The translations under genes were made by a program, and so were the position numbers. A stretch of DNA of 64,000 nt from Clostridiaceae bacterium (lineage in GTDB: Bacteria; Bacillota; Clostridia; Oscillospirales; QAMX01). The notes under the pieces are model-generated. The model was not told where the DNA came from, searched no databases, and worked only from the letters and a program-made list of their open reading frames with translations. Within the stretch, counting starts at the first letter, position 1, and the number at the start of each line of letters is the position of its first letter. Of this stretch, positions 25,748-57,971 are shown piece by piece. Location of the stretch: the NCBI GenBank assembly GCA_018384365.1, contig JAHAYX010000016.1, positions 28,021 to 92,020 on the forward strand. Reading direction: 5' to 3'.

Positions 25748-26899
<1,152 letters not shown>

Positions 26900-26997: not shown

Positions 26998-28191
26998 TTA
27001 TTCGCCCAGGCAGGCGTATGCCGTTTCACGCACCTTGCGGTGATGATAGACCTCCAGGTTGGGGGCCGTGTTATGCATGTAGGTGATGGAAACGTGACTG
27101 ACCGGATCCGCCTCGCACCAGGTGCCGAAGCCTCCCGTCCAGCCAAAAGATCCGGTATGGCCGCAGGCCTCGCCCGCCGCGCGTCCCATCAGGGTACGCA
27201 CGCCGTAGCCATAGCCATATCCGGCGTTATAGCCGCTGTTTTCCGTCTGATATTCCATAAGCGCTTCGTCGGACAGGCAATTGGTGCGCATGAAGGCCAG
27301 CGTTTCTTCCCGCAGCAGACGTTTGCCGTCTGCCACGCCGCCGCACGCCCACATCTGCAGGAACTTTGAAAAATCGCGTACGTTTGTCATGATGGATGGA
27401 CGGCCCTCTTCGTTTTCCTCGCCGGGGCGCTGGGAACGGTCGGCGGAATCCGGAAACGGCCGGAATCCATCGTCCGTGATCTGATAAAGGCGTACCAGAC
27501 GGGATTCCAGATCGTCGCGGAAGAGCGTATCTGTATCGTGCATTTCAAGCGGCTCAAAGATATAGCGGCGCATGGCCATATAAAGTGGCATTCCGGTGAG
27601 TTCCTCCACCACGCCGCCGATCAGTTCGCTGCCAAAACCATACAACCAATGCGTGCCGGGGTCAAAGGCAACAGGCACCGCCGCAATAGCGCGGATGGCC
27701 TCGCGTACCCGGTAATGGCCTTTTGCCCAGAGAGGCTCCATGGCCCGGTTCATGGCAAGCAGCACGGGATCGGTGCAGTCCGGGCCGACGGGATAAAAGC
27801 AATAGGGCAGGCCACAGGACATGATCGTTGCATCACGCACGGTAATGGGGCGGGAAATCGGCTCTTCCCGCAGGGAACCGTCCTCAGCGCGGACATATTT
27901 CGTCTTATTCGCCCACTCGGGGAAGAAATCCGAAATTGGCTGCTCCATGCGAACCTTTCCCTGTTCGTAGAGCATCATCAGAATCGTGTACGTAACCAGT
28001 TTGGTCATGGAAGCCTGGCGGTAGAGTGAGGCTGACGTGACGGGCAGGCCGCGCTCCAGATCCGCAGATCCATAATAGCCTTCATAGAGGATCTTACCGT
28101 CCTGTGCAACGGCACAGGAACAGCCGGGAACACTTTTTTCGGCAAATTCACGCAGGACTGCATCCAGCTTTGAAAAATCAGCCATAGGCAC
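26998..28191 (-). CDS. Serine hydrolase (beta-lactamase/class C, S12-like)
   Basis: SxxK motif YRQASMTKLVT; FGWTGGFGTW C-terminal motif. Confidence 0.9.
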   Translation of the reverse strand: MPMADFSKLDAVLREFAEKSVPGCSCAVAQDGKILYEGYYGSADLERGLPVTSASLYRQASMTKLVTYTILMMLYEQGKVRMEQPISDFFPEWANKTKYVRAEDGSLREEPISRPITVRDATIMSCGLPYCFYPVGPDCTDPVLLAMNRAMEPLWAKGHYRVREAIRAIAAVPVAFDPGTHWLYGFGSELIGGVVEELTGMPLYMAMRRYIFEPLEMHDTDTLFRDDLESRLVRLYQITDDGFRPFPDSADRSQRPGEENEEGRPSIMTNVRDFSKFLQMWACGGVADGKRLLREETLAFMRTNCLSDEALMEYQTENSGYNAGYGYGYGVRTLMGRAAGEACGHTGSFGWTGGFGTWCEADPVSHVSITYMHNTAPNLEVYHHRKVRETAYACLGE

Positions 28192-28194
28192 CTC

Positions 28195-29394
28195 TTAATC
28201 CAGGCTGCCATAAGCGGCAGCGCGCATACGCAGATGATGATATTCTTCCAGATTGGGCTGCAGGTTGTGCATATATACGATGGAAACGCCCTCGGACGGA
28301 TCGGACTCCGCCCAGGTGCCGGATCCGCCCGTCCAGCCAAAGGCACCGAGCGAACCGTTGTGGTGTCCGGCGTATTTGTCCAGCAGGGTACGCACGCCGT
28401 AGCCATAGCCATACCCGGCAAGATAATCGTTTGTGAAATCGCGCGCGATGATCTGGTCGGACAGGGTGTTGGTGCGCATCAGGTCGATGGTTTTGCGGCC
28501 CATGATGCGCTCGCCATTATAGACGCCGCCGTTTGCCAGCATCTGCATGAGCTTCGTATAGTCCCAGCAGTTCGTAATCACACGGGCAAATCCTGGCACG
28601 GTGCCGAGCGGGCCGACCATGGCGGCCTCCATGTGTGCCGGCGCGGTGTAAAGGGCACCTTCTTCGCCGAGTTTTTTGTCCTTGGCCAGGAAATAGTTCT
28701 TCACCAGACGCTGGTCCAGATCGCCAAAGGTGAAGTTTGCGGAGCTGTCCATGCCAAGCGGATCAAAAAGCGTCTCTTTGATCACCAGTTCGGCAGGTTT
28801 GCCGCCAACGACCTCCAAAAGTCCGGCGGTCAGCTCGCTGGCAAAGCCATACAGGAATGCACTGCCCGGTTCAAAGGCCAGCGGCACCTCTGCAGTGGCA
28901 CGGATCTGTTCGCGCAGCGTATAATACCCCTTGGCGCGCAGAGGCTCCATCACTTTCGCCATGGCTTCCGCTGTGGGATGCCGCACCGGCGTGAAACCCA
29001 TAATCATCTGATAGGGCAGACCGCAGGTCATATTCATGATGTTTTTGATCGTGATCGGATGCTCGACCGGTACGATGTCCACCTCGCCGTCCGACCGGGT
29101 GACTGCCTTCATGGAATGGCGATATTCCGGGAAATACTCATACAGCGGGTCGGACATGAGGAATTTTCCCTGTTCATAAAGGATCATGGCGGTCGTATAC
29201 ATCGCGACTTTGGTTAAGGAAGCCTGGCGGAACACGTTATTGCGCGTCAGCGCAACATGGTTTTCCACGTCAGAGTAGCCAAAGTAGTTTTCATATAAAA
29301 TTTCGCCTTTTTTTGCAACGATACAGCCGCAGCCGGGCAGTCCGTCATCCACGAATTTCTGAAGCAGAGCGTCAAGATGCTTGAAATCAGGCAT
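28195..29394 (-). CDS. Serine hydrolase (beta-lactamase/class C, S12-like)
   Basis: SxxK motif FRQASLTKVAM; GAFGWTGGSGTW; paralogous to neighbours. Confidence 0.9.
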   Translation of the reverse strand: MPDFKHLDALLQKFVDDGLPGCGCIVAKKGEILYENYFGYSDVENHVALTRNNVFRQASLTKVAMYTTAMILYEQGKFLMSDPLYEYFPEYRHSMKAVTRSDGEVDIVPVEHPITIKNIMNMTCGLPYQMIMGFTPVRHPTAEAMAKVMEPLRAKGYYTLREQIRATAEVPLAFEPGSAFLYGFASELTAGLLEVVGGKPAELVIKETLFDPLGMDSSANFTFGDLDQRLVKNYFLAKDKKLGEEGALYTAPAHMEAAMVGPLGTVPGFARVITNCWDYTKLMQMLANGGVYNGERIMGRKTIDLMRTNTLSDQIIARDFTNDYLAGYGYGYGVRTLLDKYAGHHNGSLGAFGWTGGSGTWAESDPSEGVSIVYMHNLQPNLEEYHHLRMRAAAYGSLD

Positions 29395-29405: not shown

Positions 29406-30578
29406 TTAGTCGATCAGGCCGTAGGCCGCAGTACGCATCCGCAGATGATAATACTGTTCCTCGTCCGGAATCATGTTGTGCATATAAACGATGGAAACGC
29501 CGTCCTCGGGATCCGCTTCGCACCAGGTGCCGAAGCCGCCGGTCCAACCAAAGGCGCCGACAGAGCCGTTGTGATTGCCCTGCTCTTTGTCCACTAAGGT
29601 ACGCACGCCGTAACCGTAGCCATAACCGGCGTTATAGGTATCCTGGAAGAGTTTGTCGAGTCCGTTTGCGCGCATCATATCAATGGTCTTGCGGCCCATG
29701 ATGCGCTGCCCATTGTAAACGCCGCCGCAGGCCAGCATTTGCATCAGCTTGGTGTAATCATTGACATTGGAGAAGAGGCGCGCCCAGCCCTCTTCATTTT
29801 CGGCGCCGGGCAGGTGCTTTTTGTCGAAGAATGTAGGTCCGGGAACCAGGGAACCGTCGTCCGACTTGCGGTACAGCTTCACGAGGCGCTCCTGCGCATC
29901 GCCGAAGAAGCGCGAACGGGTGTTGTCCATGCCGAGCGGGCCGAACAGCATTTCTTCAAACACATCGTCGATCGGCTTTCCGCAGACGGCTTCAATGATA
30001 CCGGCAGCAAGCTCGCTCGAGAAACCGTAAATCCATTCGGTGCCGGGTTCACAGGCCAAAACGGCCTTGGAAATTGCAGCGATCTGCTCGCGGTTCGTGT
30101 AGTGGCCCTTCTCCCACAAGGGCTTCATGGCTTCCTGCATGGATTGCAGCGTGCGGTTGTTTGTCGGTGCGGCGCTGTTGCAATAGGGCAGGCCGCACTT
30201 CATGGAAAGCACGTCGCTGACGGTGACGGGTCCGTCGGTCGGTACGGCTTCCGTATAGCCGTTTGCATTTTTAACGTATTTTTTCATTTCCCGCCACTCC
30301 GGGAAGAAATGATAGATGGGGTCAGTCAGCAGGAACTTTCCGCGCTCATACAGCATCATCATGGTGACATAGAGCGGAATCTTGGACATGGATGCCAGAC
30401 GGAACAGAGACTGCGGGGTGACCGGCGTTTTTGCGTCGAGATCGGCGCAGCCGAAGTATCCCTCGTAGAGCGTTTTGCCGTTCTGGGCGATCTGCAGGGA
30501 ACACCCGGGAAGCCCGCCGTCCACGAATCCCTGCAGGAGACGGTCAAGATCTTTGATAGTTGACATAATACCCTCCAA
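29406..30578 (-). CDS. Serine hydrolase (beta-lactamase/class C, S12-like)
   Basis: SxxK motif FRLASMSKIPL; GAFGWTGGFGTW; paralogous to neighbours. Confidence 0.9.
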   Translation of the reverse strand: MEGIMSTIKDLDRLLQGFVDGGLPGCSLQIAQNGKTLYEGYFGCADLDAKTPVTPQSLFRLASMSKIPLYVTMMMLYERGKFLLTDPIYHFFPEWREMKKYVKNANGYTEAVPTDGPVTVSDVLSMKCGLPYCNSAAPTNNRTLQSMQEAMKPLWEKGHYTNREQIAAISKAVLACEPGTEWIYGFSSELAAGIIEAVCGKPIDDVFEEMLFGPLGMDNTRSRFFGDAQERLVKLYRKSDDGSLVPGPTFFDKKHLPGAENEEGWARLFSNVNDYTKLMQMLACGGVYNGQRIMGRKTIDMMRANGLDKLFQDTYNAGYGYGYGVRTLVDKEQGNHNGSVGAFGWTGGFGTWCEADPEDGVSIVYMHNMIPDEEQYYHLRMRTAAYGLID

Positions 30579-30803: not shown

Positions 30804-31577
30804 TCAGTTTCCGCATTCGATGCTGATTTGGTTAAAGAGATGCAGGACATCATCCGTGGAGGTATTGCGCTTTTCTTCGCCTGCCTTATCAAGAACAATG
30901 TGGCCGCGGTCCATCATCACGATGCGGCTTCCGTACTCCACTGCATAGCGCAGGTTGTGCGTGACCATGATGGCGGTCAGGTTCTTTTCCCGCACAATCC
31001 GGTCGGTCAGCTGCATGATGATTTCCGCAGTGTGCGGGTCAAGCGCGGCGGTGTGTTCGTCCAGGATCAGGAAGTCAAGCGGCGTCAGCGTTGCCATCAA
31101 AAGTGCAACGGCCTGGCGCTGGCCGCCGGAGAGGGAGCCCATCTTCACACTCATCTTGTCCTCCAGGCCCAGACCGAGCGCCGCAAGCTGTTCGCGGTAA
31201 TATCCGGCGCGTTTTTTGTTGACGCCGGAGGAAAGGCCAAAGCGTTTGCCTTTGTTGTCCGCAAGGGACATATTCTCGAGGATGGTCAGATTTGGACAGG
31301 CTCCGGCGGCAGGGTTCTGATACACGCGTCCAAAGGTGCGGTAGCGCCGGAATTCCGCCAAATGGTTGACGGAAACGCCGTCAATCAGCACATCGCCGCC
31401 ATCAATCGGGATACTGCCGCAGATAATATTCAGCATGGACGTCTTTCCACTGCCGTTTGAACCGACGATGGAGACGAATTCCCCATCGGCAACCTTGAAA
31501 TTGAATCCATCAAACAGGCACATTTCCGTAACGGTGCCGGGATTATAAACTTTTGAAATGTTTCTGAGTTCAAGCAT
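30804..31577 (-). CDS. ABC transporter ATP-binding protein (TrpZ-like)
   Basis: Walker A GSNGSGKTS, signature LSGGQRQAVAL, Walker B DFLILDEHTAALDP. Confidence 0.92.
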   Translation of the reverse strand: MLELRNISKVYNPGTVTEMCLFDGFNFKVADGEFVSIVGSNGSGKTSMLNIICGSIPIDGGDVLIDGVSVNHLAEFRRYRTFGRVYQNPAAGACPNLTILENMSLADNKGKRFGLSSGVNKKRAGYYREQLAALGLGLEDKMSVKMGSLSGGQRQAVALLMATLTPLDFLILDEHTAALDPHTAEIIMQLTDRIVREKNLTAIMVTHNLRYAVEYGSRIVMMDRGHIVLDKAGEEKRNTSTDDVLHLFNQISIECGN

Positions 31578-31583
31578 ACCTTG

Positions 31584-32504
31584 TCACCGTCCTTTTCCCG
31601 TTTTCGGCGCCAAACGCTCCCCAAATTTCTTCAGAGAGCCTTTCTTCACGTTGCCGAGAACCAGGATCACGAGGAAGAGCACCGCTGTGATCAGCTTCAG
31701 CAGGTTGGCGGGCAGGCCAAGATTGATCGCACACTGGATGCAGATTTTATAGAGAATACTGCCGACGATCGCGGCGGTGGTTCCCTTTACAAAATCGAAT
31801 TTTTTGAAAATGGTTGTACCGATGATGACGGTTGCCAGACCGAACACAACCTGGCCGGTGCCCATGGTGCTGGAAAAGGCACGCTGTTCCTGACAGACCA
31901 CGCAGCCGGCCAGCGCAACGAGCGCATTGGAAATCACAAGCCCAAGGATCTTGACGAAACCGCGGTCTTTTGCCAGGGAAGTGACAAGCGTGCTGTTGTC
32001 GCCGACAGCCCGCAGCAGCAGGCCGTTTTTGGTCTTGAAATACAGGTCCAGCAAAACCTTGAAGATGAGCGCCAGAATCATGGAAACGATCAGCTTTCTC
32101 ACGATGAGGGAACATCCGCCAAAGAGCGCCATGGTGGGAGGTGCGTTGAAAATCGTGTCAATTGCACGCTCCACAGAGAGGTTGGAGCCTGCAATCTGCA
32201 GATTGATGGAAAAGAGCGCCGTCATGGTGATGATGCCGGCAAGCAGATCACGTACGCCGAGTTTGACATGAATCAATCCCGTTACAAGTCCCGCCAACGC
32301 GCCGACGGCAAGCGCCACGAGCAGCGTCAGATAGGGGTTTACGCCGTTGACCAGCAAAAGCGCCGTCACGGCAGCGCCGAGCGGGAAGCTTCCGTCAACT
32401 GTCAGATCCGGAAAGTCCAGAATTTTATATGTGATATAGACACCATAGGAGAGCAGTGCATAGATAAAGCCTTGCGTGAGCGTACTGACGATCAGATCGA
32501 GCAT
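31584..32504 (-). CDS. ABC transporter permease (TrpY-like)
   Basis: TM-rich; LTQGFIYALLSYGVYITYKILDFPDLTVDGSFPLGAAV typical of this permease family. Confidence 0.9.
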   Translation of the reverse strand: MLDLIVSTLTQGFIYALLSYGVYITYKILDFPDLTVDGSFPLGAAVTALLLVNGVNPYLTLLVALAVGALAGLVTGLIHVKLGVRDLLAGIITMTALFSINLQIAGSNLSVERAIDTIFNAPPTMALFGGCSLIVRKLIVSMILALIFKVLLDLYFKTKNGLLLRAVGDNSTLVTSLAKDRGFVKILGLVISNALVALAGCVVCQEQRAFSSTMGTGQVVFGLATVIIGTTIFKKFDFVKGTTAAIVGSILYKICIQCAINLGLPANLLKLITAVLFLVILVLGNVKKGSLKKFGERLAPKTGKGR

Positions 32505-32551
32505 GACGGAAGTCTCCCTGTTTTCAGAATTTCATACGAGGTGCGGTGGAC

Positions 32552-33523
32552 TTATGCGTCCTTGGATTCCACGGCCTTTTCGGCTACGTCTGCCGGAAGC
32601 TCCAGAGAAAGCGCCGCAAGCGCCTCGGAGTTGATGTAAATGCCATATTCGGAGATGGTTTCATAAGGAATTTCGGAAGCGGAGGCTTCGCCCTTCAAGA
32701 CCTTTGCGGCCATGGCGCCGGTCTGGCGGCCAAGTGCATAATAGTCGATACCGGCGGCTGCAACGCATCCGCCCTTCACCTGCTCCACTTCACTGCCGTA
32801 AACGGGGATGCCGGCGTCGTTGGTTTTTTCCAGGATGGAGGCGAGCACGCCCACCACGGTGTTGTCGGTCAGGTTGGAGAAGCAGTCAACGCCGCGATTG
32901 ATCAGCGTATCAACAGCCTGCGTGACTTCGTTCTGCGCGGTGACGCCGATCGCATCAATGGTGAAACCGTAATCAGCGGCGTTTGCCTGGTAATCGGCGA
33001 TGGTGGAAACGGAGTTCGGCTCGCTGGTGGTGTAGATGATGCCGATGGTCTTGGCGTCCGGCTGGATGCTGCGGATCAGGTCAAGCTGTGCTTCCACGGG
33101 GAGCTTATCGGAGGTACCGGTGATGTTGCCGCTGTCCAGCTTCGCCTGTACGGGGTCGGAAACGGCGGTGAAGATGACCGGAATATCCTTATCTTCCGCG
33201 GCTGCATAGCAGGAAACAGCGGAGTTTGTGGCAATGCCGCACATCAGCGCGACGTTGTTTGCGGAGAAGCTGGAGGCAATGTCGCCGGCGATATCGTCAT
33301 CGAAACCTGCGTTCTGGTAATCCACGGTGAAATCTTCGCCTTCCACGAGGCCGGCGTCTGCAAGGCCCTGCAGGAAACCGTTGCGGCAGTTGTCAAGGGA
33401 AGGATGCTCGCCGTACTGGTTAATACCGATGACGGGGATCTTGTTTTCTTTGGAACAGGCGGAAAATGCGCAGATCATCATGAGTGCGAGTGCAGCACAG
33501 AGAATTTTCGTAAACTTTTTCAT
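32552..33523 (-). CDS. ABC transporter substrate-binding lipoprotein (TrpX-like, DUF534/COG2984)
   Basis: Start at MKKFTKILCAALALMMICAFSACSKENKIPVIGINQYGEHPSLDNCRNGF (lipobox); IPVIFTAVSDPVQAKL. Confidence 0.9.
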   Translation of the reverse strand: MKKFTKILCAALALMMICAFSACSKENKIPVIGINQYGEHPSLDNCRNGFLQGLADAGLVEGEDFTVDYQNAGFDDDIAGDIASSFSANNVALMCGIATNSAVSCYAAAEDKDIPVIFTAVSDPVQAKLDSGNITGTSDKLPVEAQLDLIRSIQPDAKTIGIIYTTSEPNSVSTIADYQANAADYGFTIDAIGVTAQNEVTQAVDTLINRGVDCFSNLTDNTVVGVLASILEKTNDAGIPVYGSEVEQVKGGCVAAAGIDYYALGRQTGAMAAKVLKGEASASEIPYETISEYGIYINSEALAALSLELPADVAEKAVESKDA

Positions 33524-33614
33524 AGTGAATATCTCCTTCATATCGAAAAGTACTGTTTGTTGTTTGTTTTTCAGGTGTGGCAGATGAGTTATATGCCGCG
33601 CCATCGTCTGGTTA

Positions 33615-33945
33615 AGAGTATCATACCGGTTCGCTCCTTGCAAAAGTAAAAATAAAAACGCCGTATCCCACGGAAACCATGGGACAAGGCGTTTGATAAC
33701 CCTGCGGTACCACCCAAATTGACGATAAATCGTCCACTTTGTATCCTGCACACTGACGATGCAAGCCGCTTTGTTAACGAGTGCGGTTCCCGTCGATTAC
33801 TACTCACGCTGCCGCGCTTTCGGTCGCCCTCATAAGTCCATTCGCCTTACTTACCACGGCCGCGATCACACCATCCGCGGCTCTCTTTGCGTTACTCGGT
33901 AAGGGTACTCTTCTTACTCAACGGTTTCAGTCATGTAATTGATGG
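33615..33945 (-). promoter_or_regulatory. T-box riboswitch (specifier UGG, Trp)
   Basis: Minus strand: T-box UGGGUGGUACCGCAGGG; terminator AACGCC-UUG-UCCCA-UGGUUUCCG-UGGGA-UAC-GGCGUUUUU; stem I with CCUUAC/GUAAGG and 3' specifier loop CGAA-UGG-A (specifier near 33838-33840). Confidence 0.9.
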
Positions 33946-39137: not shown

Positions 39138-40670
39138 GTGAAAAAAACATCCCTTATGAAGAACTCACTGGTACTGACCGGTTTTTCCCTCGCCATGCGC
39201 ATTGCGGGAATTGCGTTTTCCATGTATGTGGCCGCGGGTGTCGGGGCGGAGGGCATGGGCCTTTATCAGCTGACTTATTCGGCGTTCACCCTTGCCGTGA
39301 CGATGGCAACGGCGGGAATTTCCGTGGCTGTGACGCGGGTTTTGACGGAGGAACAGGGCCTGCGCCGACGGGGCAGCGAACGGCCCGTCATGCGCTGTGC
39401 GCTTGGCTATGCTGCGCTGGTCAGCCTGACGGCGGCGGCCTGCGTACTGTTGGGCTCGGAGTATATCGGCAGCGTGCTGCTCTCCGATGCCAGAACAGCG
39501 CTCTCCCTGCGTGTACTGGCGCCCGCGCTGCCGATGATGTCGCTCTCCTCCTGCTTTAAGGGGCATCTGCTTGCCGTGCGCAGACCCATACAGATTGCCG
39601 TGAGCGATGCGATTGAGCAGGTGGTGGAGGTCGGCACTTTTGTATTCCTGATCCGGCGTTTTCCCGGCCTTGCCATGGAAACGGCCTGCGCGGCGATTGC
39701 CGCAGGTGTGACGCTGTCGGAACTGGCTTCCTGCGTCTATTTGTTTGTCTGCTACCGGCGTTACCGGGAACGGCCTGCGGGACGGCAAGCAGGCGGTTTC
39801 CTGCGCCGTCTGCTTGCCGTTGCACTGCCTGTGGCAGGCAGCTCGTGCCTTGCCTCCGCACTTCGCACGATGGAAAACGTCATGGTGCCCTCCGGCCTGC
39901 GAAAGAGCGGAATGTCCGAGGCGGCTGCGCTTTCCGACTACGGCATGGTGCGCGGCATGGCGCTGCCGGTCCTGTTCCTGCCGTTTGCGTTTTTGTCGGC
40001 TTTCACTTCGCTGCTGATGCCGGAAATCTCGGAGGCGCAGGCTGCGCAGCGGGATGGCTACATCCACACGCTGGTGGAACGGGTGATCCGCTCCTGCCTG
40101 CTGTTATCCATCCCTGCCGCAGCGATTTTTGCGGTGTTTTCCGGGCCTTTATCGGAACTTGTGTATCACAACAGCCAGGTTGGCATGATCATCCTGATCC
40201 TGGCGCCGCTTGTACCGCTGATGTACTTCGATGCGGTGGCCGACGGTATCCTCAAGGGCCTGGGCCAGCAAAACTGGGTGCTTTATTGCAACATTGCCGA
40301 TTCCGTCATCCGTGTTTTCATGGTCTACCAGATGATTCCGGCGATGGGTTTTACCGGTTTCATGCTCGTCATGTATGTGAGCAACATTTTTAACCCGGTG
40401 CTGAGCATCTGGCGCATGATGAAACTCTCCCATGTACGTCTGCGCGCAGGCGAATGGATCGCCAAGCCGCTTTTAGCTGCCGGCGCGTCATCGCTTACGG
40501 TACGTCTTTTGTGCCTGCGCAATCCCGCAGCACAGCTGGATGTTTACGTGGTCATCGCGGAGATCCTTCTGTTGGGGCTCCTGTATGCAGCGTTTCTGTG
40601 GCTGCTCAGCGGTGAAAAAAAGGACCTTCGCACGGGATACCGGCTCCGCCGGAAAGGTTCCGGCGCATAA
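39138..40670 (+). CDS. Oligosaccharide flippase family protein (SpoVB-like)
   Basis: About 500 aa polytopic protein; VGAEGMGLYQLTYSAFTLAVTMATAGISVAVTRVLTEE typical of SpoVB/MurJ-type flippases. Confidence 0.83.
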   Translation: MKKTSLMKNSLVLTGFSLAMRIAGIAFSMYVAAGVGAEGMGLYQLTYSAFTLAVTMATAGISVAVTRVLTEEQGLRRRGSERPVMRCALGYAALVSLTAAACVLLGSEYIGSVLLSDARTALSLRVLAPALPMMSLSSCFKGHLLAVRRPIQIAVSDAIEQVVEVGTFVFLIRRFPGLAMETACAAIAAGVTLSELASCVYLFVCYRRYRERPAGRQAGGFLRRLLAVALPVAGSSCLASALRTMENVMVPSGLRKSGMSEAAALSDYGMVRGMALPVLFLPFAFLSAFTSLLMPEISEAQAAQRDGYIHTLVERVIRSCLLLSIPAAAIFAVFSGPLSELVYHNSQVGMIILILAPLVPLMYFDAVADGILKGLGQQNWVLYCNIADSVIRVFMVYQMIPAMGFTGFMLVMYVSNIFNPVLSIWRMMKLSHVRLRAGEWIAKPLLAAGASSLTVRLLCLRNPAAQLDVYVVIAEILLLGLLYAAFLWLLSGEKKDLRTGYRLRRKGSGA

Positions 40671-40706
40671 AAAGGACGTGGGTGCAAAGACACCCACGTC
40701 CTTTTC
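40671..40706. terminator. Bidirectional Rho-independent terminator
   Basis: AAAAGGACGTGGGTG-caaaga-CACCCACGTCCTTTT between convergent genes; also marks the 3' end of the GH10 operon. Confidence 0.85.
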
Positions 40707-40713
40707 TGCTTTT

Positions 40714-41712
40714 TTACAGGGCTGCTTCGATGATTTCCTGAACAAAGGGCTTCGGACGGTGATCTGCGTAGAAAAGAAGCGGATAATTGGTGCGGCCGCG
40801 CACCGGCCAGTAATTCAGCCAGGTATAATCATCCGCAACGCCCCAGGTGGTCACGTTGTCGATCACGTCGGAATACTCGCGGTAGACCTTGAAGAGGTCG
40901 ATGTAAAGCTGTGCCTGACGCTCGAACATCTCATCGGTGAGCAGCGGCGCGGGGAGAGACCGATCCTTTGGATCATAGAGGGAAATATCCAGTTCCGTCA
41001 CGTGCAGACGCACGCCGAATGCGGCAAAGGCCTCGATGGATCGCTTTACGTCGTCGATATCGACGTTATAAATGCTCATATGGCTCTGCATGCCAAAGCC
41101 CTCGACAGGCGCACCCTCGTCCTGCAGCTTTTTCAGGAGCTTGCAGATCTTTTCACGCTTGTGCGGCAGCCACTCATCATAGTCATTATAGAAAAGCTGC
41201 ACGTTCGGCGCCACTTTTTTGGCCAGCTTGAAGGCTGTGGCAAGATAATCCTCGCCCAGGATGCGCAGCCAGTTTGTCTCGCGCAGGACGGGCTTTGCCG
41301 GATCGTCGTCGATGGCTTCGTTCACAACATCCCAATACTGCACAAAATCACCGTAGCGCGCGGCAAAAACGGTGAACTGCTCTTCCAGACGCTCTAAAAG
41401 CTCCTCGCGCGACACTTCGCCGCCCGCATCGTTTTCAAAAATCCACGGATTGGTGCCGCCGTGCCACACGGGCGCATGGGCGCGGAATACCATACCGTTT
41501 TCGCGGGCAAAGCTGACAAGCTGGTCGGCCGGATCAAAGTTCCAGACAGCCTTTTCCGGATGCAGGGGGCCAAACTTCATCTGATTTTCCGGAGACATGG
41601 AGTTAAACTGCGTGCGCAGCAGGTTTGCGTGGCTCGGGAACTCGCGCGGCGAGGTGGCCGCGCCGATTTTGAAGTATTTTTCATAGGCTTTCGCCAATGT
41701 CATTTCACTCAT
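40714..41712 (-). CDS. GH10 family endo-1,4-beta-xylanase (paralog 1, most operon-distal)
   Basis: FVQYWDVVNEAIDDDP (acid/base Glu), RLHVTELDISLYD (nucleophile Glu), FYNDYDEW; no signal peptide. Confidence 0.95.
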   Translation of the reverse strand: MSEMTLAKAYEKYFKIGAATSPREFPSHANLLRTQFNSMSPENQMKFGPLHPEKAVWNFDPADQLVSFARENGMVFRAHAPVWHGGTNPWIFENDAGGEVSREELLERLEEQFTVFAARYGDFVQYWDVVNEAIDDDPAKPVLRETNWLRILGEDYLATAFKLAKKVAPNVQLFYNDYDEWLPHKREKICKLLKKLQDEGAPVEGFGMQSHMSIYNVDIDDVKRSIEAFAAFGVRLHVTELDISLYDPKDRSLPAPLLTDEMFERQAQLYIDLFKVYREYSDVIDNVTTWGVADDYTWLNYWPVRGRTNYPLLFYADHRPKPFVQEIIEAAL

Positions 41713-41725
41713 ATGGTACCTCCCA

Positions 41726-42799
41726 TTATTTCACGGCATCGATCATCTGATAGACGCAGGGTTTGGGCTGATGCTGCTCATCAAAGAGCAGGGGATGCTG
41801 CTTGACCTTCGGCATATCCGGATGGATGCCGAAGGTGTCGAGCCAGGTGATGTCGTCGGCTACGCCCCAGGTGGTGACACAGTCGATGACATCCCGATAG
41901 CTGCGGTAAACCGCAAAGAGTTTTTCATACATATCCGAAATTTGCGCCAGCTTTTCCGGCGTGGGATTCATGGCCTCGCGGAGATACTCGGCAAAGCCGG
42001 GTTCACCGGGTTTGACACGATGCGAGAGGTTGGACACGGCCATCATGGAGATATCAAGCTCCGTGATGTGGATGCGCAGGCCGAGACCGGCATAGATTTC
42101 GATGGAACGCTTCAGTTCATCGTAATCCGGTGCGGAGAAGTAGTGCTGCTGCATGCCGAAACCGTCAATGCGGCAGCCTTTTTCCTGCAAATTGCGAATG
42201 AGGGCGACAGTGCGCTCGCGCTTGGCGGGGTCGCACTCGTTGTAATCGTTATAGAAAAGCTGTGCATTCGGCGAGTATTTGTCCATGGCCCGAAAAGCCT
42301 TTTCGATGAACTCTGCGCCGCAGAGCTTGAAATATTCGCTGGTGCGGTAAACGGGATCTCCGTCCTCCCCGTCCTTCGAGCCGATGCGGTCGTCGCGCGT
42401 GGCTTCGTTGACGACATCCCAGCAGTACACCGCGTCGTTGAAATGCTCCGCAATCGCTTTGGTATGCGCGTCGATGCGCTCATAGATGAGCTCCTTCGGA
42501 GCGGGACGATCGCCGTCGCGGTACATCCAGGCGCCGGTCTGATTGTGCCAGACGGGCGCGTGCGCACGCAGCTTGATGCCCATCTTTTTTGCAAAATCTA
42601 CGATGAGATCTGCATCACCGAAGGTGAAAACGCCTTCTTCCGGCTCCGTCAGCTCGTATTTCATCTGGTTCTCGCAGGTAAGGGAGTTGAAATGCTGCAG
42701 CAGGATGTCGCGGTGGATTGTCAGGTCCGGCGGCGAAACGGCCGCGCCGATTTTAAAACAGGATTCATAGGCTTTTGCAAGAGAACGCATAGGGTTCAT
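41726..42799 (-). CDS. GH10 family endo-1,4-beta-xylanase (paralog 2)
   Basis: VYCWDVVNEATRDD, RIHITELDISMMA, FYNDYNE; no signal peptide. Confidence 0.95.
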   Translation of the reverse strand: MNPMRSLAKAYESCFKIGAAVSPPDLTIHRDILLQHFNSLTCENQMKYELTEPEEGVFTFGDADLIVDFAKKMGIKLRAHAPVWHNQTGAWMYRDGDRPAPKELIYERIDAHTKAIAEHFNDAVYCWDVVNEATRDDRIGSKDGEDGDPVYRTSEYFKLCGAEFIEKAFRAMDKYSPNAQLFYNDYNECDPAKRERTVALIRNLQEKGCRIDGFGMQQHYFSAPDYDELKRSIEIYAGLGLRIHITELDISMMAVSNLSHRVKPGEPGFAEYLREAMNPTPEKLAQISDMYEKLFAVYRSYRDVIDCVTTWGVADDITWLDTFGIHPDMPKVKQHPLLFDEQHQPKPCVYQMIDAVK

Positions 42800-42824
42800 A
42801 CAGTACAGCTCCTTCTTTTCTGAT

Positions 42825-43841
42825 TCAGCGGCCGCAAATCGCGTCCTCTACAATCTGGCGGGTGAAGAATTTCGGGGTGTGGTCATAGTAGAAAAGCAGC
42901 GGATAATGGCTGCGGCCCGGGCGGAGCCAGCCATCCAGCCAGTTGATATCGTCGGCAATGCCCCAGGTGGTCACATCGTCGATCACATCGGCGTATTCGC
43001 GCGCCGCGGCAAATACCTGGCGGTAGATGGTGGCCTGTCGTTCGATCAGCTCGTCCGTATACGGATAGGCGGGGAGCATACGTTCCCGCGCGGAATACGG
43101 GGACACATCCAGCTCTGTGATATGGATGCGCAGGCCGAGCGCCGCATAGGTTTCGATGGTGCGCTTGTATTCGCCGATGTCGAAGTCATGGACATTGATG
43201 TGACTCTGCATACCGAAGCCGTCGAGCGGGATGCCGCGCTCCTGCATACTGCGCATCAATTTCACGATCTTCTCGCGCTTGATGGGGTTATATTCGTTAT
43301 AGTCGTTATAGAAAAGCTGGGCGTTCGGCGCATATTTACGGGCGAGCCGGTAGGCAATGTCAATGTAATCCTCACCGATGCCCTCCAGCCACTTTGTTTT
43401 TCGCAGCAGGCCGCCGTCCGGATCGTCATCGATGACCTCGTTCACGACATCCCAGCAGAAAAACTGATCCCCATAGCGCTCGCAGAACGCCTTGGTATGG
43501 CGCTCGATGCGCTCAATCAGGAGCTCGCGGGATGCGGGCTTGCCGTTGGCGTCCAGATGCGTCCACTCCGCAGTCTGAATGTGCCACAGCGGGGCGTGCG
43601 CACGCAGGGCCATGCCGTTTTCCTTCGCGTAATTCGCAATTTTGTCAGCTTCCTCCCATGTGAAAACGCCGTCCTCCGGCTCCGTGGGTTCCCACTTCAT
43701 CATGCCCTCGTCCGTGATACAGTTGAAGTGCTTTTTCAGGATGCTGTCATGCGACACAAAGTCGCGGGAATTGAGGCAGGTGCCAACCTTGAAGTATTTG
43801 GCGTGCGCCTCGCAGAGGGAAGGCATATTGTCGTACTTCAT
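42825..43841 (-). CDS. GH10 family endo-1,4-beta-xylanase (paralog 3)
   Basis: FFCWDVVNEVIDDDP, RIHITELDVSPYS, FYNDYNEYNP; no signal peptide. Confidence 0.95.
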   Translation of the reverse strand: MKYDNMPSLCEAHAKYFKVGTCLNSRDFVSHDSILKKHFNCITDEGMMKWEPTEPEDGVFTWEEADKIANYAKENGMALRAHAPLWHIQTAEWTHLDANGKPASRELLIERIERHTKAFCERYGDQFFCWDVVNEVIDDDPDGGLLRKTKWLEGIGEDYIDIAYRLARKYAPNAQLFYNDYNEYNPIKREKIVKLMRSMQERGIPLDGFGMQSHINVHDFDIGEYKRTIETYAALGLRIHITELDVSPYSARERMLPAYPYTDELIERQATIYRQVFAAAREYADVIDDVTTWGIADDINWLDGWLRPGRSHYPLLFYYDHTPKFFTRQIVEDAICGR

Positions 43842-43856
43842 ATCAAGACCTCCATG

Positions 43857-44888
43857 TTATTTCAATGCGTCCTCAATGATTTTTTCTGTATAGGGCCTCA
43901 TGCGGTGATCCGCATAAAAGAGAAGCGGGAAGTTTTTACGCTGCATCGGCACGTTATCCGGCTTGAAATCGCCGATGCGCACTGCGGAGGAGTCGAGCCA
44001 GGTGGCGCTGTCGGCCACGCCCCAGGTGGTGACGGAGTCGATCACATCTGCATACTGGCGGTAGATCGAGAACAACTCGACGTACATATCGTACTGTTTT
44101 TGCAGCATTTCGTCCGTAATGGTCGGCCGTCCTGTTTCATACACGGTGTAGAGCGAAACATCCAGCTCCGTCACGTGCAGACGGAGTCCCAGCGACGCAT
44201 AGGCCTCCACGCTGCGGCGGATTTCGTCCAGATCGGCATAAATCGACAGGTGCTGCTGCATACCGAAGCCGTCGATGGGTGCGCCCTCGTCGAGCAAGCC
44301 GCGCAGTACCTTGAGCAACTTCTCGCGCTTGTGCGGCATCCACTCGTTATAATCGTTATAGAAGAGCTGCACGCTGTCCGGCACGCATTTTTTCGCAATG
44401 CGGAAGGACTGCGCCAGAAAATCTTCGCCGATGATCTGCGTCCAGTTCGAATCGCGCAGCACGCCTTTGCCAAAATGGGCAATAGCCTCATTTATCACGT
44501 CCCAGCAATAGACGTCCGCACCGTAACGCTGGCCGAACACCATCATGTGCTCTTCCAGACGCTCCAGCAGCGCCTCGCGGGAGAGTGTTTCCCCGTCGTC
44601 GTCCCGGAACATCCACAGGCCGACCTGTTTGTGCCACACGGGTGCGTGCGCACGCACAGCCATGCCGTGCGCCTTGGCATAGGCGACGATTTGATCCGCC
44701 GCACGGAAGTCCCACACGTCCTTCTGCGGATGGATGGGCTCAAATTTCATGGCGTTGCCGCCGGTCAGGCTGTTGAAATGCTCTGCCAGAATGTCGCCGA
44801 ACAGTTCAAAATCCCGGGGCGAAACAGCCGCGCCGATTTTAAAGTATTTTGCATAAGCCTCGCGCAACGAGGGTATTTTGGTACTCAT
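43857..44888 (-). CDS. GH10 family endo-1,4-beta-xylanase (paralog 4)
   Basis: VYCWDVINEAIAHFG, RLHVTELDVSLYT, FYNDYNEW; start at MSTKIPSLREAYAKYFKIG. Confidence 0.95.
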   Translation of the reverse strand: MSTKIPSLREAYAKYFKIGAAVSPRDFELFGDILAEHFNSLTGGNAMKFEPIHPQKDVWDFRAADQIVAYAKAHGMAVRAHAPVWHKQVGLWMFRDDDGETLSREALLERLEEHMMVFGQRYGADVYCWDVINEAIAHFGKGVLRDSNWTQIIGEDFLAQSFRIAKKCVPDSVQLFYNDYNEWMPHKREKLLKVLRGLLDEGAPIDGFGMQQHLSIYADLDEIRRSVEAYASLGLRLHVTELDVSLYTVYETGRPTITDEMLQKQYDMYVELFSIYRQYADVIDSVTTWGVADSATWLDSSAVRIGDFKPDNVPMQRKNFPLLFYADHRMRPYTEKIIEDALK

Positions 44889-44920
44889 TTTTTCATCCTT
44901 CCTTTCCTGATACTGCAGGC

Positions 44921-45931
44921 TCACCGCACCGCGTCCACAATGGCGCGCGTGCAGGGCTTGGGTGTGTGGTCATAGGAGAAAAGAAGGGGGTAATTCTTGC
45001 GTCCGGGGACGGGATGCATATCCAGCCAGGTCAGATCGTCCGCCACGCCCCAGGTGGTGACGGATTCGATCACGTCGGAATAGGAACGGTAGATGGCAAA
45101 GAGGTCCTCGTACATTTTCCCCTGACGTGCAAAGTCCTCACGGGACGGGATGGTAAAATGCTTGGGATAATAAGGATTCGGGCGATCCTTTGGATGATAC
45201 AGCGAGACGTCGAGCTCCGTGATATGCAAGGTGATGCCAAGCGCCGCATAGGCTTCGATGGCGGCCTTGATGTCATCGAGATTTGTATAAATGCTGACGT
45301 GCTGCTGTAAACCGAAACCATCCAACGGAACGCCGCGTTCCTGCATACCACGCATCAGACGCACGATTTTATCGCGCTTGATGGGATGAAACTCGTTGTA
45401 GTCGTTATAAAAAACCTGTGTATGGGGCGCATATTTTTTCACAAAGCGATAGGCATAGTCGATATAATCCGGGCCGATGAGCTTGTACCACTTGGTCTCG
45501 CGCAGATAGCCGTCCGGTTCATCCACAATGGCCTCGTTGACCACATCCCAGGCATAAACCGAGTCGCCGTAGCGTCCGGCCAGCACGCGGATATGATCCT
45601 CCAGGCGCTCGAGCAGGAGCTCGCGGTCTGCATAGACAAAACGGTCGGTAAAAATCCAATCGGCTGTCTGCTGGTGCCAGACCGGCGCATGCGCACGTAC
45701 GGCCATGTGGTGCTCTTTGGCAAAGGCAAAGATGGCATCAGCGTCTGCAAAGTCATAGCGGTATTCCTCGGGGTGAATGGGCCCGAATTTCATGGCGCTT
45801 GAGGTGGTGAGGCTGTTGAAATGCTTCACAATCAGATTGCGTTGTGCAGTCAGGTTCTGCGGCATGACGGCCGCGCCGATTTTGAAATAGTCTGCATAGG
45901 CTTCGCACAGCGAAGGCATATCCTGATACAT
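44921..45931 (-). CDS. GH10 family endo-1,4-beta-xylanase (paralog 5)
   Basis: VYAWDVVNEAIVDEP, TLHITELDVSLYH, FYNDYNEFHP; no signal peptide. Confidence 0.95.
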   Translation of the reverse strand: MYQDMPSLCEAYADYFKIGAAVMPQNLTAQRNLIVKHFNSLTTSSAMKFGPIHPEEYRYDFADADAIFAFAKEHHMAVRAHAPVWHQQTADWIFTDRFVYADRELLLERLEDHIRVLAGRYGDSVYAWDVVNEAIVDEPDGYLRETKWYKLIGPDYIDYAYRFVKKYAPHTQVFYNDYNEFHPIKRDKIVRLMRGMQERGVPLDGFGLQQHVSIYTNLDDIKAAIEAYAALGITLHITELDVSLYHPKDRPNPYYPKHFTIPSREDFARQGKMYEDLFAIYRSYSDVIESVTTWGVADDLTWLDMHPVPGRKNYPLLFSYDHTPKPCTRAIVDAVR

Positions 45932-45962
45932 ATGATAAAATCCTCCTGTCGGGAAAACGTAT

Positions 45963-45991
45963 ACAGGGCAGGCCCAAAAGACCTGCCCTGT
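45963..45991 (-). other. Intra-operonic perfect hairpin between GH10 paralogs 6 and 5
   Basis: ACAGGGCAGG-cccaaaaga-CCTGCCCTGT, 10-bp perfect stem, no adjacent U-run. Confidence 0.7.
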
Positions 45992-46002
45992 GATCAGGCA
46001 AA

Positions 46003-47028
46003 TTATTTCCCGGCGACAGCGTCGTCGATCATCTTGTAAACGCAGGGTTTCGGGGAGTGATCCGCATTGAACAGCAGCGGATAGTTGGGACGGTCCGGGC
46101 GGGAGAGCCAGGAACGGTCGTCGGCCACGCCCCAGGTGGTGACGGAGTCGATCACGTCGGAATAGGAGCGATACAGCTCGAACAGCTTGACGTAGATCTC
46201 GTTCTGCTTTTCGCGCATTTCGTCCGTAATCTCCATGGCGGCTTCCTTGGAATGAACGTCCGTGTAGAAATTGATGTCCATTTCCGTGATATGGATGCGC
46301 AGGCCGAGCGAAGCATACAATTCGATGGATTTTTTCACTTCGTCAAGATCCGGCTTGTTGATATTATAGTGCGTCTGCATACCGAATCCCTGAAGCGGTG
46401 CGCCGCGGTCCAGCAGGTTCTTCATGAGGTTATAAATGCGCTCGCGCTTGAGCGGGTCGCACTCGTTATAATCATTATAAAAGAGCTGCACGTGCGGGGC
46501 ATACTTGCGGGCCAGGTGATAGGCCTTTTCCAGATACTCCACGCCGCAGGTGACCAGATAATCGGTCAGGCGGTAGGGATTGTTGCCATAACGGCGCAGG
46601 AACATTTCGTCCACCTTGTCGGCGGTGGCTTCGTTCACCACGTCCCAGGCATACACGGCGTCGCGATAGCGCTCGGCGACAACCTTGATGTGCTGCTCCA
46701 GGCGCTCAAACACAAGCTCGCGGGGAGCCAGACGGCCGTTTGCTTCAAAGAACCACTTCGGGGTCTGGTTGTGCCACACCGGCGCGTGCATACGCATACG
46801 CATGCCGTTTTCCTTTGCAAAGGCAACGATACTGTCGGCGGGTTCAAAAATCCATTTGTCCTCTTCGGGATGCATGGGCTCATACTTCATCTGATTCTCG
46901 CAGGTCAGACTGTTGAAGTGCTTCTTCAAGAGATCTGCATGAATGGTCAGGCTGGGGGGCGAGATGGCGGCGCCGATGTCGAAATACTTTTTGTAAGAAT
47001 CGCACAGCGACAGGATTTCCTTGTTCAT
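46003..47028 (-). CDS. GH10 family endo-1,4-beta-xylanase (paralog 6, promoter-proximal)
   Basis: VYAWDVVNEATADK, RIHITEMDINFYT, FYNDYNECDP; no signal peptide. Confidence 0.95.
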   Translation of the reverse strand: MNKEILSLCDSYKKYFDIGAAISPPSLTIHADLLKKHFNSLTCENQMKYEPMHPEEDKWIFEPADSIVAFAKENGMRMRMHAPVWHNQTPKWFFEANGRLAPRELVFERLEQHIKVVAERYRDAVYAWDVVNEATADKVDEMFLRRYGNNPYRLTDYLVTCGVEYLEKAYHLARKYAPHVQLFYNDYNECDPLKRERIYNLMKNLLDRGAPLQGFGMQTHYNINKPDLDEVKKSIELYASLGLRIHITEMDINFYTDVHSKEAAMEITDEMREKQNEIYVKLFELYRSYSDVIDSVTTWGVADDRSWLSRPDRPNYPLLFNADHSPKPCVYKMIDDAVAGK

Positions 47029-47077: not shown

Positions 47078-47106
47078 AGTATATCATTGGCTCCCTGCGA
47101 AGTCAA
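47078..47106 (-). promoter_or_regulatory. Sigma-A-type promoter of the GH10 cluster
   Basis: Minus strand TTGACT - 17 nt - TATACT, about 50 bp upstream of the first GH10 ATG. Confidence 0.75.
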
Positions 47107-55205: not shown

Positions 55206-57971
55206 TTACAGCACACCAAAGGTGATGGAGTAAGTCCAGGTGCCAACAACGCTGCCGTTGCTGTATGCAGAGATGACAAGAGTCTTGGTCTGGAGACCAA
55301 TGTTGTCAAGAATAACGGAGTTGACCTGGCCATTTGTGAGCGTATAGCTGGTGCCGCCATTCACAGAGTAGGAATAGGTGCAGCCGCCGCTCGGAATGGA
55401 GATGGCCAGCGTTGCGCTCGTGCCGCCGATGTTATAGGACAGACCGGGCTGCAGAACGTTGTTGTTCACGGAAACGGAGGGAGGCGTCACGCTCGGCGTG
55501 ACGATGCTGCCGCCGTTGGTGCCGTAAATCACGGTAACGCTGGTGGTGACGGCCTTTGTGCCGATCAGGGAGCTATTCGGCGTAAGAGTCATCGAATAGG
55601 TGACGCCGGTGCTGTATGCCGGTGCAGCATAGCTGCCGGTGATCGAAGAAACCGGAACACCATTGATGGCGTAAGTAGCCGTATAACCGGTCGGGACAGC
55701 GCCTGCGGTCACATAATAGGAAGTGGTGGTGTAAACGGTGTTGTTTGTGCCATAGTAGCCGGTGCCATCGACATAAACGGCCGGAACAACACCCATGTAG
55801 TAAGTCTGCGTTGTGGCTTCGCTGATCTTGGTGCCGTTTTCATTGACGGCCCAGGCGCTGACCACGATCACGGAACCGGAAATTCTGTTCAGATAAATTC
55901 TTGCGTAAGTAGAAGCATAAGAATTGCTGAACGTGCCGGAATCCTTCTGGATGCCATCAACGGTAACCGTGTAGGCAACCTTCGTCACACCGGTCGGGAA
56001 GCCAACCTGGATGTAATCGCTGGTGGTAACACTGGAGGAACCGCTGGAGGACGTCAGTGTCGGTGCAGATGCAGAAGTGTTGGAGCCTGCAATGATGGAT
56101 GCAGAGGTGGTTGCCGGTGCAACGCTGTTAATATTCACGAGGTTCGAGCCAAAGGCCACCGTGTAGGTCTTACCCAGCGTGATGCCCGAAGTCGGCGTCA
56201 GGTAGATCGTCGTGTTCGTGAGGGAATTGGAAACCGTAGCGGTGAACGCCGTGATTCTGGTCGAGCCTTCATACACGGTGAAGAGGCTGGCCAGCTGCGT
56301 GGAGTTCAGGCTGGTAAGCGCGGAAACGGTGTAGGGATACGTTGCAGCCTTGTAGTACATGACCTGATCAAAGGTCAGAACCAGGGAGTTGCCAAGCAGG
56401 GTGGAACCGGTCATGGAAGAGGAAAGCGTCCAGGTCGGAGTCGTGGACTTGGAAGCAGCCGGAACATCCGTGCTCATTGCGGTTGCAATGCCGGAAATCG
56501 TGGTCTTGTTGTAATACGGCTTCAGATTCGTCGTGGAAGTGATTCCGGTCGGCAGGAAGACTACGCCGACATTGTAGTTCTCGAAGGAACCCGTGACAGT
56601 CAGCGTCAGCGTATTGGCAACGTTTGCAGCAACGGTCTTATAAGTGCCGACATTCGATGCGCTGATGAGAGAAGAGGCAGCCGCCTTGATTTCCGCAGCG
56701 GTCAGAGAGGTGTTGGTCTTCGGCCATGCAGCGGCATACAGCGTACCGGCAGCATTGGTGGTCACATTGATCGTGATGATGCTGCTGTTTGCGGCATAGT
56801 AATTCACAGAGCCGCTGACAGTGGCGTTCGTGATGTTGGACTTGATGGGCTTGCCGCTGCCGGCCTCATACTTGATGCCGTCGAAGGTGGCGGTGTAGCC
56901 CTTATAAATGTAATATTCCGTGATATCCACGTCGGTGGTGGTGATGCCGTCGTCCTGAACAGCAATGTTCGTGACAGCGCCCTTACCGGAAACGGTGGAG
57001 TTCTTGGAACCGTTGTTGAAGAGGAGCTTTTTAATCAGAGAATCCTCGGAAACCGTAATGACGGTCGGTGCATTGATCTCGGCAGTGGCGATTTCGGTCT
57101 CGCCCTCAAGCTCGATTTCCGCACGGCTGCCATTCACAGTCATGTTGGAAACAACGGAGTCGTAAAGCGTCACTTCGGTGTTGCCGCGGACAATGAGGTT
57201 GCCGCTGATGTAGCAATCGGTGAAGTAAACGGCGTCAACGCCTTCGGTGATGTAAACATTGCCGGTGAAGGTAATGCCGGAGAGGTTGACAGACTTGTTG
57301 ATGGTAGCGTTTGTCTTGTAAGCACCGGATTCGGCACGGCTTGCGGAACGGTCATAGATCGCGCCGGCTGCCGTGTAGAGGATACGCAGTGCTTCCGAAC
57401 GGGTCAGAACGCGGCCCGGCTGGAAATTACCGGTGTCATCGCCCTGGATGATGCCTGCGCCTGCTGCAATCAGAGCATAAGAGCGGTAGGCCGGGGAAAT
57501 CTTGCTGTAATCCGGGAAACGGGAAGAGGAAACTGCGAGTTCGTCGTCCAGATCCAGATAACGCATGATGAGAGCAACGGCCTCTTCACGGGTCAGGTCC
57601 TTCGTAAAGTCGAAGTCCTTCGTGTACTCGTCGAGCAGGAAGCCCTGTGCGGCTGCCTTTTCGAGGTAGCGGCCTTCTCTTGCCCAGGTCGGGACATTGG
57701 TGTAGTTCACGGTTGCGGTGTCAACGAGATTGAACGTCGCGACGATCATCTTGATGAACTCGATGTGGGTGACGTCATCCTTCGGACGGAACTTACCGGT
57801 GCCGTCGCCCTCCAGGATGCCCTTATCGGTCAGATAATAGATTTCGTCGTACGCCCAGAAGTCTTTCGCAACGTCTGTATAGGTAACGGCGCCGGCGCCC
57901 GGGATCATAACCCCGGCAAACAGCGAGAATACCAGGCAGACAGCTAAGACCAACGACAATGAACGCTTCAT
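55206..57971 (-). CDS. S-layer homology (SLH) domain-containing surface protein
   Basis: Signal peptide MKRSLSLVLAVCLVFSLFAGVMIPGAGA; three N-terminal SLH-like repeats (VAKDFWAYDEIYYLTDKGILEGDGTGKFRPKDDVTHIEFIKMI; LTREEAVALIMRYL; YALIAAGAGIIQGDDTGNFQPGRVLTRSEALRIL); Ser/Thr/Tyr-rich C-terminus. Confidence 0.92.
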   Translation of the reverse strand: MKRSLSLVLAVCLVFSLFAGVMIPGAGAVTYTDVAKDFWAYDEIYYLTDKGILEGDGTGKFRPKDDVTHIEFIKMIVATFNLVDTATVNYTNVPTWAREGRYLEKAAAQGFLLDEYTKDFDFTKDLTREEAVALIMRYLDLDDELAVSSSRFPDYSKISPAYRSYALIAAGAGIIQGDDTGNFQPGRVLTRSEALRILYTAAGAIYDRSASRAESGAYKTNATINKSVNLSGITFTGNVYITEGVDAVYFTDCYISGNLIVRGNTEVTLYDSVVSNMTVNGSRAEIELEGETEIATAEINAPTVITVSEDSLIKKLLFNNGSKNSTVSGKGAVTNIAVQDDGITTTDVDITEYYIYKGYTATFDGIKYEAGSGKPIKSNITNATVSGSVNYYAANSSIITINVTTNAAGTLYAAAWPKTNTSLTAAEIKAAASSLISASNVGTYKTVAANVANTLTLTVTGSFENYNVGVVFLPTGITSTTNLKPYYNKTTISGIATAMSTDVPAASKSTTPTWTLSSSMTGSTLLGNSLVLTFDQVMYYKAATYPYTVSALTSLNSTQLASLFTVYEGSTRITAFTATVSNSLTNTTIYLTPTSGITLGKTYTVAFGSNLVNINSVAPATTSASIIAGSNTSASAPTLTSSSGSSSVTTSDYIQVGFPTGVTKVAYTVTVDGIQKDSGTFSNSYASTYARIYLNRISGSVIVVSAWAVNENGTKISEATTQTYYMGVVPAVYVDGTGYYGTNNTVYTTTSYYVTAGAVPTGYTATYAINGVPVSSITGSYAAPAYSTGVTYSMTLTPNSSLIGTKAVTTSVTVIYGTNGGSIVTPSVTPPSVSVNNNVLQPGLSYNIGGTSATLAISIPSGGCTYSYSVNGGTSYTLTNGQVNSVILDNIGLQTKTLVISAYSNGSVVGTWTYSITFGVL

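Follow-up and report, generated by a model that had tools for sequence, protein, structure and literature searches.

Why would a bacterium keep six different GH10 xylanase genes side by side, all of them for enzymes that appear to stay inside the cell? The question is raised by a stretch of 64,000 nucleotides from an uncultured, gut-type Clostridiaceae bacterium (assembly GCA_018384365.1, contig JAHAYX010000016.1; the whole stretch is called the window here), in which six consecutive GH10 genes occupy positions 40714-47028 of the minus strand. The answer favoured here, with a probability of about 0.62, is that the array would supply cytosolic GH10 endo-beta-1,4-xylanases of differing specificity, which would dismantle decorated xylo-oligosaccharides after their import.

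The genes were numbered X1 to X6 in transcription order, and all were predicted to encode cytoplasmic GH10 proteins: X1 (46003-47028, 341 aa), X2 (44921-45931, 336 aa), X3 (43857-44888, 343 aa), X4 (42825-43841, 338 aa), X5 (41726-42799, 357 aa) and X6 (40714-41712, 332 aa), each on the minus strand. The intergenic gaps across the array were 14-71 bp, except that the X3 frame could begin within X2, being either 355 aa from a GTG at 44924 or, likelier, 343 aa from an ATG at 44888 with a good Shine-Dalgarno sequence. Each protein (332-357 aa) consisted of one GH10 domain alone, with no carbohydrate-binding module in Pfam, and profile search identified full-length PF00331 in all of them (E 5e-78 to 4e-89, with 3.9e-89 for X1; 262.9-299.4 bits against a cut-off of 22.1). 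The six same-strand genes in tandem described in the initial annotation were thus present as intact reading frames.

For the comparison of species, the window's genome (G000, a metagenome-assembled 2.1-Mb draft of 63 contigs, 88.7% complete) was set beside two other genomes of its genus (the sisters G001 and G002). The catalytic motifs WDVxNE and TE(L/M)D, which had been reported for every copy, were confirmed, with the acid/base E133 and the nucleophile E249 invariant in 17 of 17 array members. Catalytic and -1 subsite residues (the -1 set being Lys/His/Trp/Trp) were identical in X1-X6 and all orthologues.

The best Protein Data Bank (PDB) matches of X1, X2 and X3 were IXT6, P. barcinonensis XynB and C. 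bescii Xyn10B (CbXyn10B), and all secreted enzymes ranked lower. An AlphaFold2 model of X2 (predicted local distance difference test 92.3, predicted template-modelling score 0.91) had GH10 xylanases as its closest solved folds, IXT6 at a template-modelling score of 0.95; the (beta/alpha)8 barrel was modelled for X2 and assigned to the other five copies by homology. On these comparisons X1-X6 are assigned to GH10 of the intracellular (IXT6/XynB) type, in keeping with the placement first given to them. Signal peptides were checked by a crude hydropathy comparison and not by SignalP: the most hydrophobic N-terminal 12-mer of the array proteins reached a mean Kyte-Doolittle value of at most 1.25, against 3.3 in a lipoprotein GH10 of the same genome. 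Since the N-terminal hydrophobicity was so far below that of the lipoprotein, no sign of a signal peptide was seen in X1-X6, as had been claimed. Secretion was rejected, for no hydrophobic N-terminal segment existed and in-frame upstream extensions were stopped or overlapped the preceding gene. The lipoprotein, a seventh canonical GH10, was encoded elsewhere in this genome and started with a lipoprotein-type (lipobox) signal.

The sharpest active-site divergence among the copies was found at the -2 (glycone) subsite, and not on the aglycone side, which the initial annotation had proposed to model. With 78 close single-copy relatives (43 at <75% mutual identity) as the reference for invariance, 48 positions were invariant, and several of these were altered in the array. 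Three of the altered positions, E44, N45 and Q88 (X1 numbering), each invariant in 78 of 78 relatives, belonged to the -2 subsite, for which the equivalent conserved residues of GH10 are given as Glu67, Asn68, Lys71, Gln111 and Trp300 (PMC6163442). X1 and X5 retained all three and so had a canonical -2 subsite, and all four copies confined to the genus (X2, X3, X4 and X6) were altered at one or more of them in at least one species. Fixed in the three species were the changes of E44 to S and N45 to S or A in X2, of N45 to G in X4 with E kept, and of Q88 to G in X6. The E-N...Q trait of the IXT6/XynB-type -2 subsite was therefore found in X1 and X5, lost in X2, X4 and X6, and partial in X3; it is a specificity trait and not a family criterion. 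Loop lengths near the cleft also differed among the copies, with an insertion of about 11 residues in X3 within the loop after WLD and a longer loop past the nucleophile in X5. The -2 changes suggest that glycone recognition may be altered, with specificities differing among the four genus-only copies. We take Q88 to be the equivalent of Cex Gln87 and Cellvibrio Xyn10A Tyr87, and this position is said, in work by Andrews and colleagues from 2000, to discriminate between glucose and xylose at -2.

The array was not a recent product. Pairwise identity among X1-X6, which had been proposed as a way to date the duplications, was 45-58%, giving old paralogues in place of near-identical copies. In both sisters the array was found at the same site, after the same cysteine desulfurase (nifS-like) gene, with six copies in unchanged order in G001 and five in G002, where X5 was absent. 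Orthologue identity was 91-94% for X1, 83-93% for X2, 76-88% for X3, 92-95% for X4, 67-68% for X5 and 85-94% for X6. The ratio of nonsynonymous to synonymous substitution rates (dN/dS) between orthologues was 0.02-0.13 for five of the six and 0.20 for X5, the fastest-evolving copy, with synonymous sites near saturation. Because the orthologues were conserved with low dN/dS, the copies are taken to have been separate before the species split and kept by purifying selection afterwards.

In the GH10 tree, X2, X3, X4 and X6 formed a genus-only group (99/97), X1 joined GH10 of rumen and horse-gut Clostridia, and X5 joined single-copy GH10 of rumen Ruminococcus-type bacteria. From these groupings the array is read as two widespread gut-Clostridia lineages (X1 and X5) plus a local expansion (X2/X3/X4/X6), whose members had no counterparts found outside the genus. 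Purely local duplication from one ancestor was rejected, since a single clade for the whole array gave a p-value of 1e-6 in the approximately unbiased test; the array is a group by position and not by tree. The phylogeny called for by the initial annotation did not yield one duplication set. In a survey of 392 genomes from the class, in which no more than five candidates of each genome were scored, no other run of short single-domain GH10 genes was found. Among 80 named loci with flanks of up to 10 kb, the array was present in the two sister genomes only; in some Bacilli among them a second GH10 was observed, which was longer (N-terminal extension of at least 100 residues) or multidomain. The open-access literature yielded no report of intracellular GH10 genes arranged in tandem. 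As a separate observation, one locus of G001 (L042, contig C35) carried two adjoining, highly divergent GH10-like genes (minus strand, around 8718 and 7602), which in alignment lacked both the -1 Trp and the motif normally seen at -2.

The sigma-70-type promoter TTGACT-N17-TATACT upstream of X1 (47078-47106, minus strand), pointed out in the initial annotation, stood up, the same element being conserved 5' of the array in both sisters. So did the shared terminator at 40670-40705, which has a stem of 15 bp and a run of T and is common to the array and a convergent flippase (SpoVB-like) gene; both sister arrays likewise closed with a hairpin and a T run after it. Between X1 and X2, however, a terminator-like hairpin with a 13-bp stem was identified (45963-45991, minus strand), and a counterpart existed in both sisters, with folding z of about -4.2 to -4.7 in all three species. 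Its T tail was weak in the window (ATACGTTTTC) and in G002, and in G001 the hairpin was of unrelated sequence with a T run at its end. Thus the promoter and the terminator of the supposed single operon are real, but a uniform six-gene operon is unlikely, since the hairpin sets X1 apart from X2-X6 in three species. It looks like a partial terminator placing X1 above X2-X6, and the same position occupied by an unrelated sequence in G001 suggests conserved attenuation.

Other genes that fit the breakdown of decorated xylan were present in the three genomes. Each had one GH67 alpha-glucuronidase (the copy of the window's genome without an evident signal), and several GH43 genes and xylulokinase-like genes were found in all of them. 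A block of four esterase genes lay about 10 kb past X6 on the same strand as the array. Three of these encoded signal-less family VIII (beta-lactamase-fold) esterases with PF00144, at 29406-30578 (E 1.8e-51; PDB esterase 7pp3, E 1e-45), 28195-29394 and 26998-28191, and were 44-53% identical to one another, a second tandem expansion. The fourth (25748-26893, minus strand) encoded a signal-less CBM48-CE1 esterase, feruloyl-esterase-like, with PF02922 and PF00756 (PDB ferulic acid esterase 6rzo, E 1e-60). In both sisters the four-gene block was about 7 kb from the array, inverted in G001, and the CE1 orthologues near the array were 72-87% identical.

The following scheme could then be proposed from the gene content. 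The surface lipoprotein GH10 is a candidate for the extracellular cleavage of xylan, and the resulting oligosaccharides would be imported by a putative transporter. In the cytosol, esterases, the GH67 alpha-glucuronidase and GH43 enzymes could take off side chains, and the paralogues X1-X6 would cleave the backbone between the decorations that remain. The copies may have been retained for different acceptance of substituted or unsubstituted glycones at -2 and for different cleft loop lengths. X1, which has a canonical site and comes first after the promoter, is probably a general enzyme with the strongest expression of the six, and X2-X6, past the hairpin, may be expressed at a lower level. 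The family and its intracellular type, the age and conservation of the array, the purifying selection, the -2 changes, the linkage to esterases and the presence of GH67, GH43 and a surface GH10 come from observation; import, substrates, differing specificities and graded expression are all inferred here.

Several observations weigh against this scheme. No match of the xylose isomerase model (TIGR02630) was obtained in any of the three genus genomes, and this is the main unexplained point of the xylan reading; of 21 genomes of the family, 7 had a match above the model's cut-off. One xylulokinase-like gene adjoined a small PF01261 TIM-barrel gene (L148, 9075-9929) and a second adjoined a GpsA-like dehydrogenase gene (L150, 8831-9859), and these two neighbours are candidates for another pentose route. 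The profiled window genes beside the array included neither a sugar transporter or regulator nor a GH67 or GH43 gene. GH67 and GH43 were on other contigs, so the genes were not gathered with GH10, a transporter and a regulator as in an aldouronate/xylan cluster. In X3 the residue at E44 was G in the window and E or D in the sisters, so its change was not fixed. Other GH10 of the class also varied at -2: of about 33 loci, six had G in place of E and two had Y in place of N, and changes of Q occurred as well. Uniqueness of the -2 changes was rejected on this account. What is notable is the gathering of -2 changes in one array and not the type of change. The imported decorated xylan oligosaccharides named as substrate in the initial annotation fit the cytosolic GH67, the GH43 and the signal-less feruloyl-esterase-like genes nearby, but not the lack of a xylose isomerase match.

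A more specific form of the proposal is tentative, and at present it is rather doubtful. Here X2, X3, X4 and X6 would be a combinatorial cytosolic kit with rebuilt -2 subsites, each cutting beside its own kind of decorated xylose (with an ester, arabinosyl or uronosyl group) which a canonical GH10 refuses there, and working with the linked tandem esterases.

Rather improbable, but the strongest of the competing explanations, is dosage, by which redundant intracellular xylanases would only raise total cytosolic activity and their divergence would be neutral drift. The identity of all catalytic and -1 residues agrees with it, as do the -2 variants of other GH10 in the class and the fact that IXT6-type enzymes already cleave many xylo-oligosaccharides. 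Redundant copies would be expected to be near-identical or decaying, whereas these were distinct lineages predating the split of the three species, with dN/dS of the low range given above in five of six copies and copy-specific -2 changes fixed across the species in X2, X4 and X6. Less likely again is a shift of X2, X4 and X6 to another beta-1,4-glycan (gluco- or mixed-linkage oligosaccharides), in which loss of E/N/Q would relax the xylose-specific -2 site. Such a shift would suit genomes with no xylose isomerase match, and also the Gly that X6 has at Q88, the position said to tell glucose from xylose. Against it stand the intact Lys/His/Trp/Trp set of the -1 subsite and the company of GH67, GH43 and feruloyl-esterase-like genes, which speaks for xylan. 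An assembly or binning artefact or a recent tandem amplification, to which a fragmented metagenome-assembled draft might lend itself, was rejected and has a negligible chance, given copies of such low mutual identity and the same neighbours in two independently assembled genomes.

The flanks of the array held mostly housekeeping genes. An ABC transporter gene trio (30804-33751; PF00005, PF02653, PF04392) was located between the esterases and PmbA/TldD genes and was missing there in G002; it was of the PF04392/PF02653 type, which is not a known xylo-oligosaccharide system. A 921-aa protein (55206-57971) carried a signal sequence and S-layer homology domains, and was otherwise without a Pfam match.

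Cytosolic handling of decorated xylan oligosaccharides by one or a few intracellular GH10 enzymes is already known. The aldouronate utilization cluster of Paenibacillus sp. JDR-2 includes the intracellular Xyn10A2, Agu67A and Xyn43B1 (PMC4765114). Like the proposed scheme, that system combines a GH10 at the cell surface with GH10, GH67 and GH43 enzymes in the cytosol and with import of decorated oligosaccharides (import being predicted here); it differs in having one intracellular GH10 clustered with transporters and regulators (PMC4765114), whereas here six GH10 lie apart from GH67, beside housekeeping genes and esterases. Butyrivibrio proteoclasticus is another of the gut Clostridia described as taking up substituted oligosaccharides and stripping them of their ester and glycosidic decorations inside the cytosol, and its cytosolic proteome includes a GH10-esterase fusion; a GH10 tandem array is not mentioned in the part of its oligosaccharide proteome account consulted (PMC5217386). 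IXT6 of Geobacillus (PDB 1n82, 2q8x), about 45% identical to X2, resembles the array proteins in being a single GH10 domain without a signal peptide and in having the same catalytic and -1 residues; unlike X2, X3, X4 and X6 it keeps E/N/Q at -2, and in the array six paralogues stand side by side. Ruminococcus-type bacteria of the rumen and other gut Clostridia carry single-copy GH10 (L046-L061) that belong to the same HAPVWH subfamily, L046 being 65% identical to X1 and L048 and L049 67-70% identical to X5, but these GH10 have one copy per locus and always E/N at -2. If the copies differ in activity, they would be a ready enzyme panel for feruloylated, acetylated or arabinosylated xylo-oligosaccharides, and would show that work on fibre fragments can be finely divided among enzymes inside the cell, beyond the reach of competitors. 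Set beside these systems, the array, with six conserved members and with changes peculiar to single copies at a subsite that is otherwise invariant, offers a natural experiment in the evolution of GH10 specificity.

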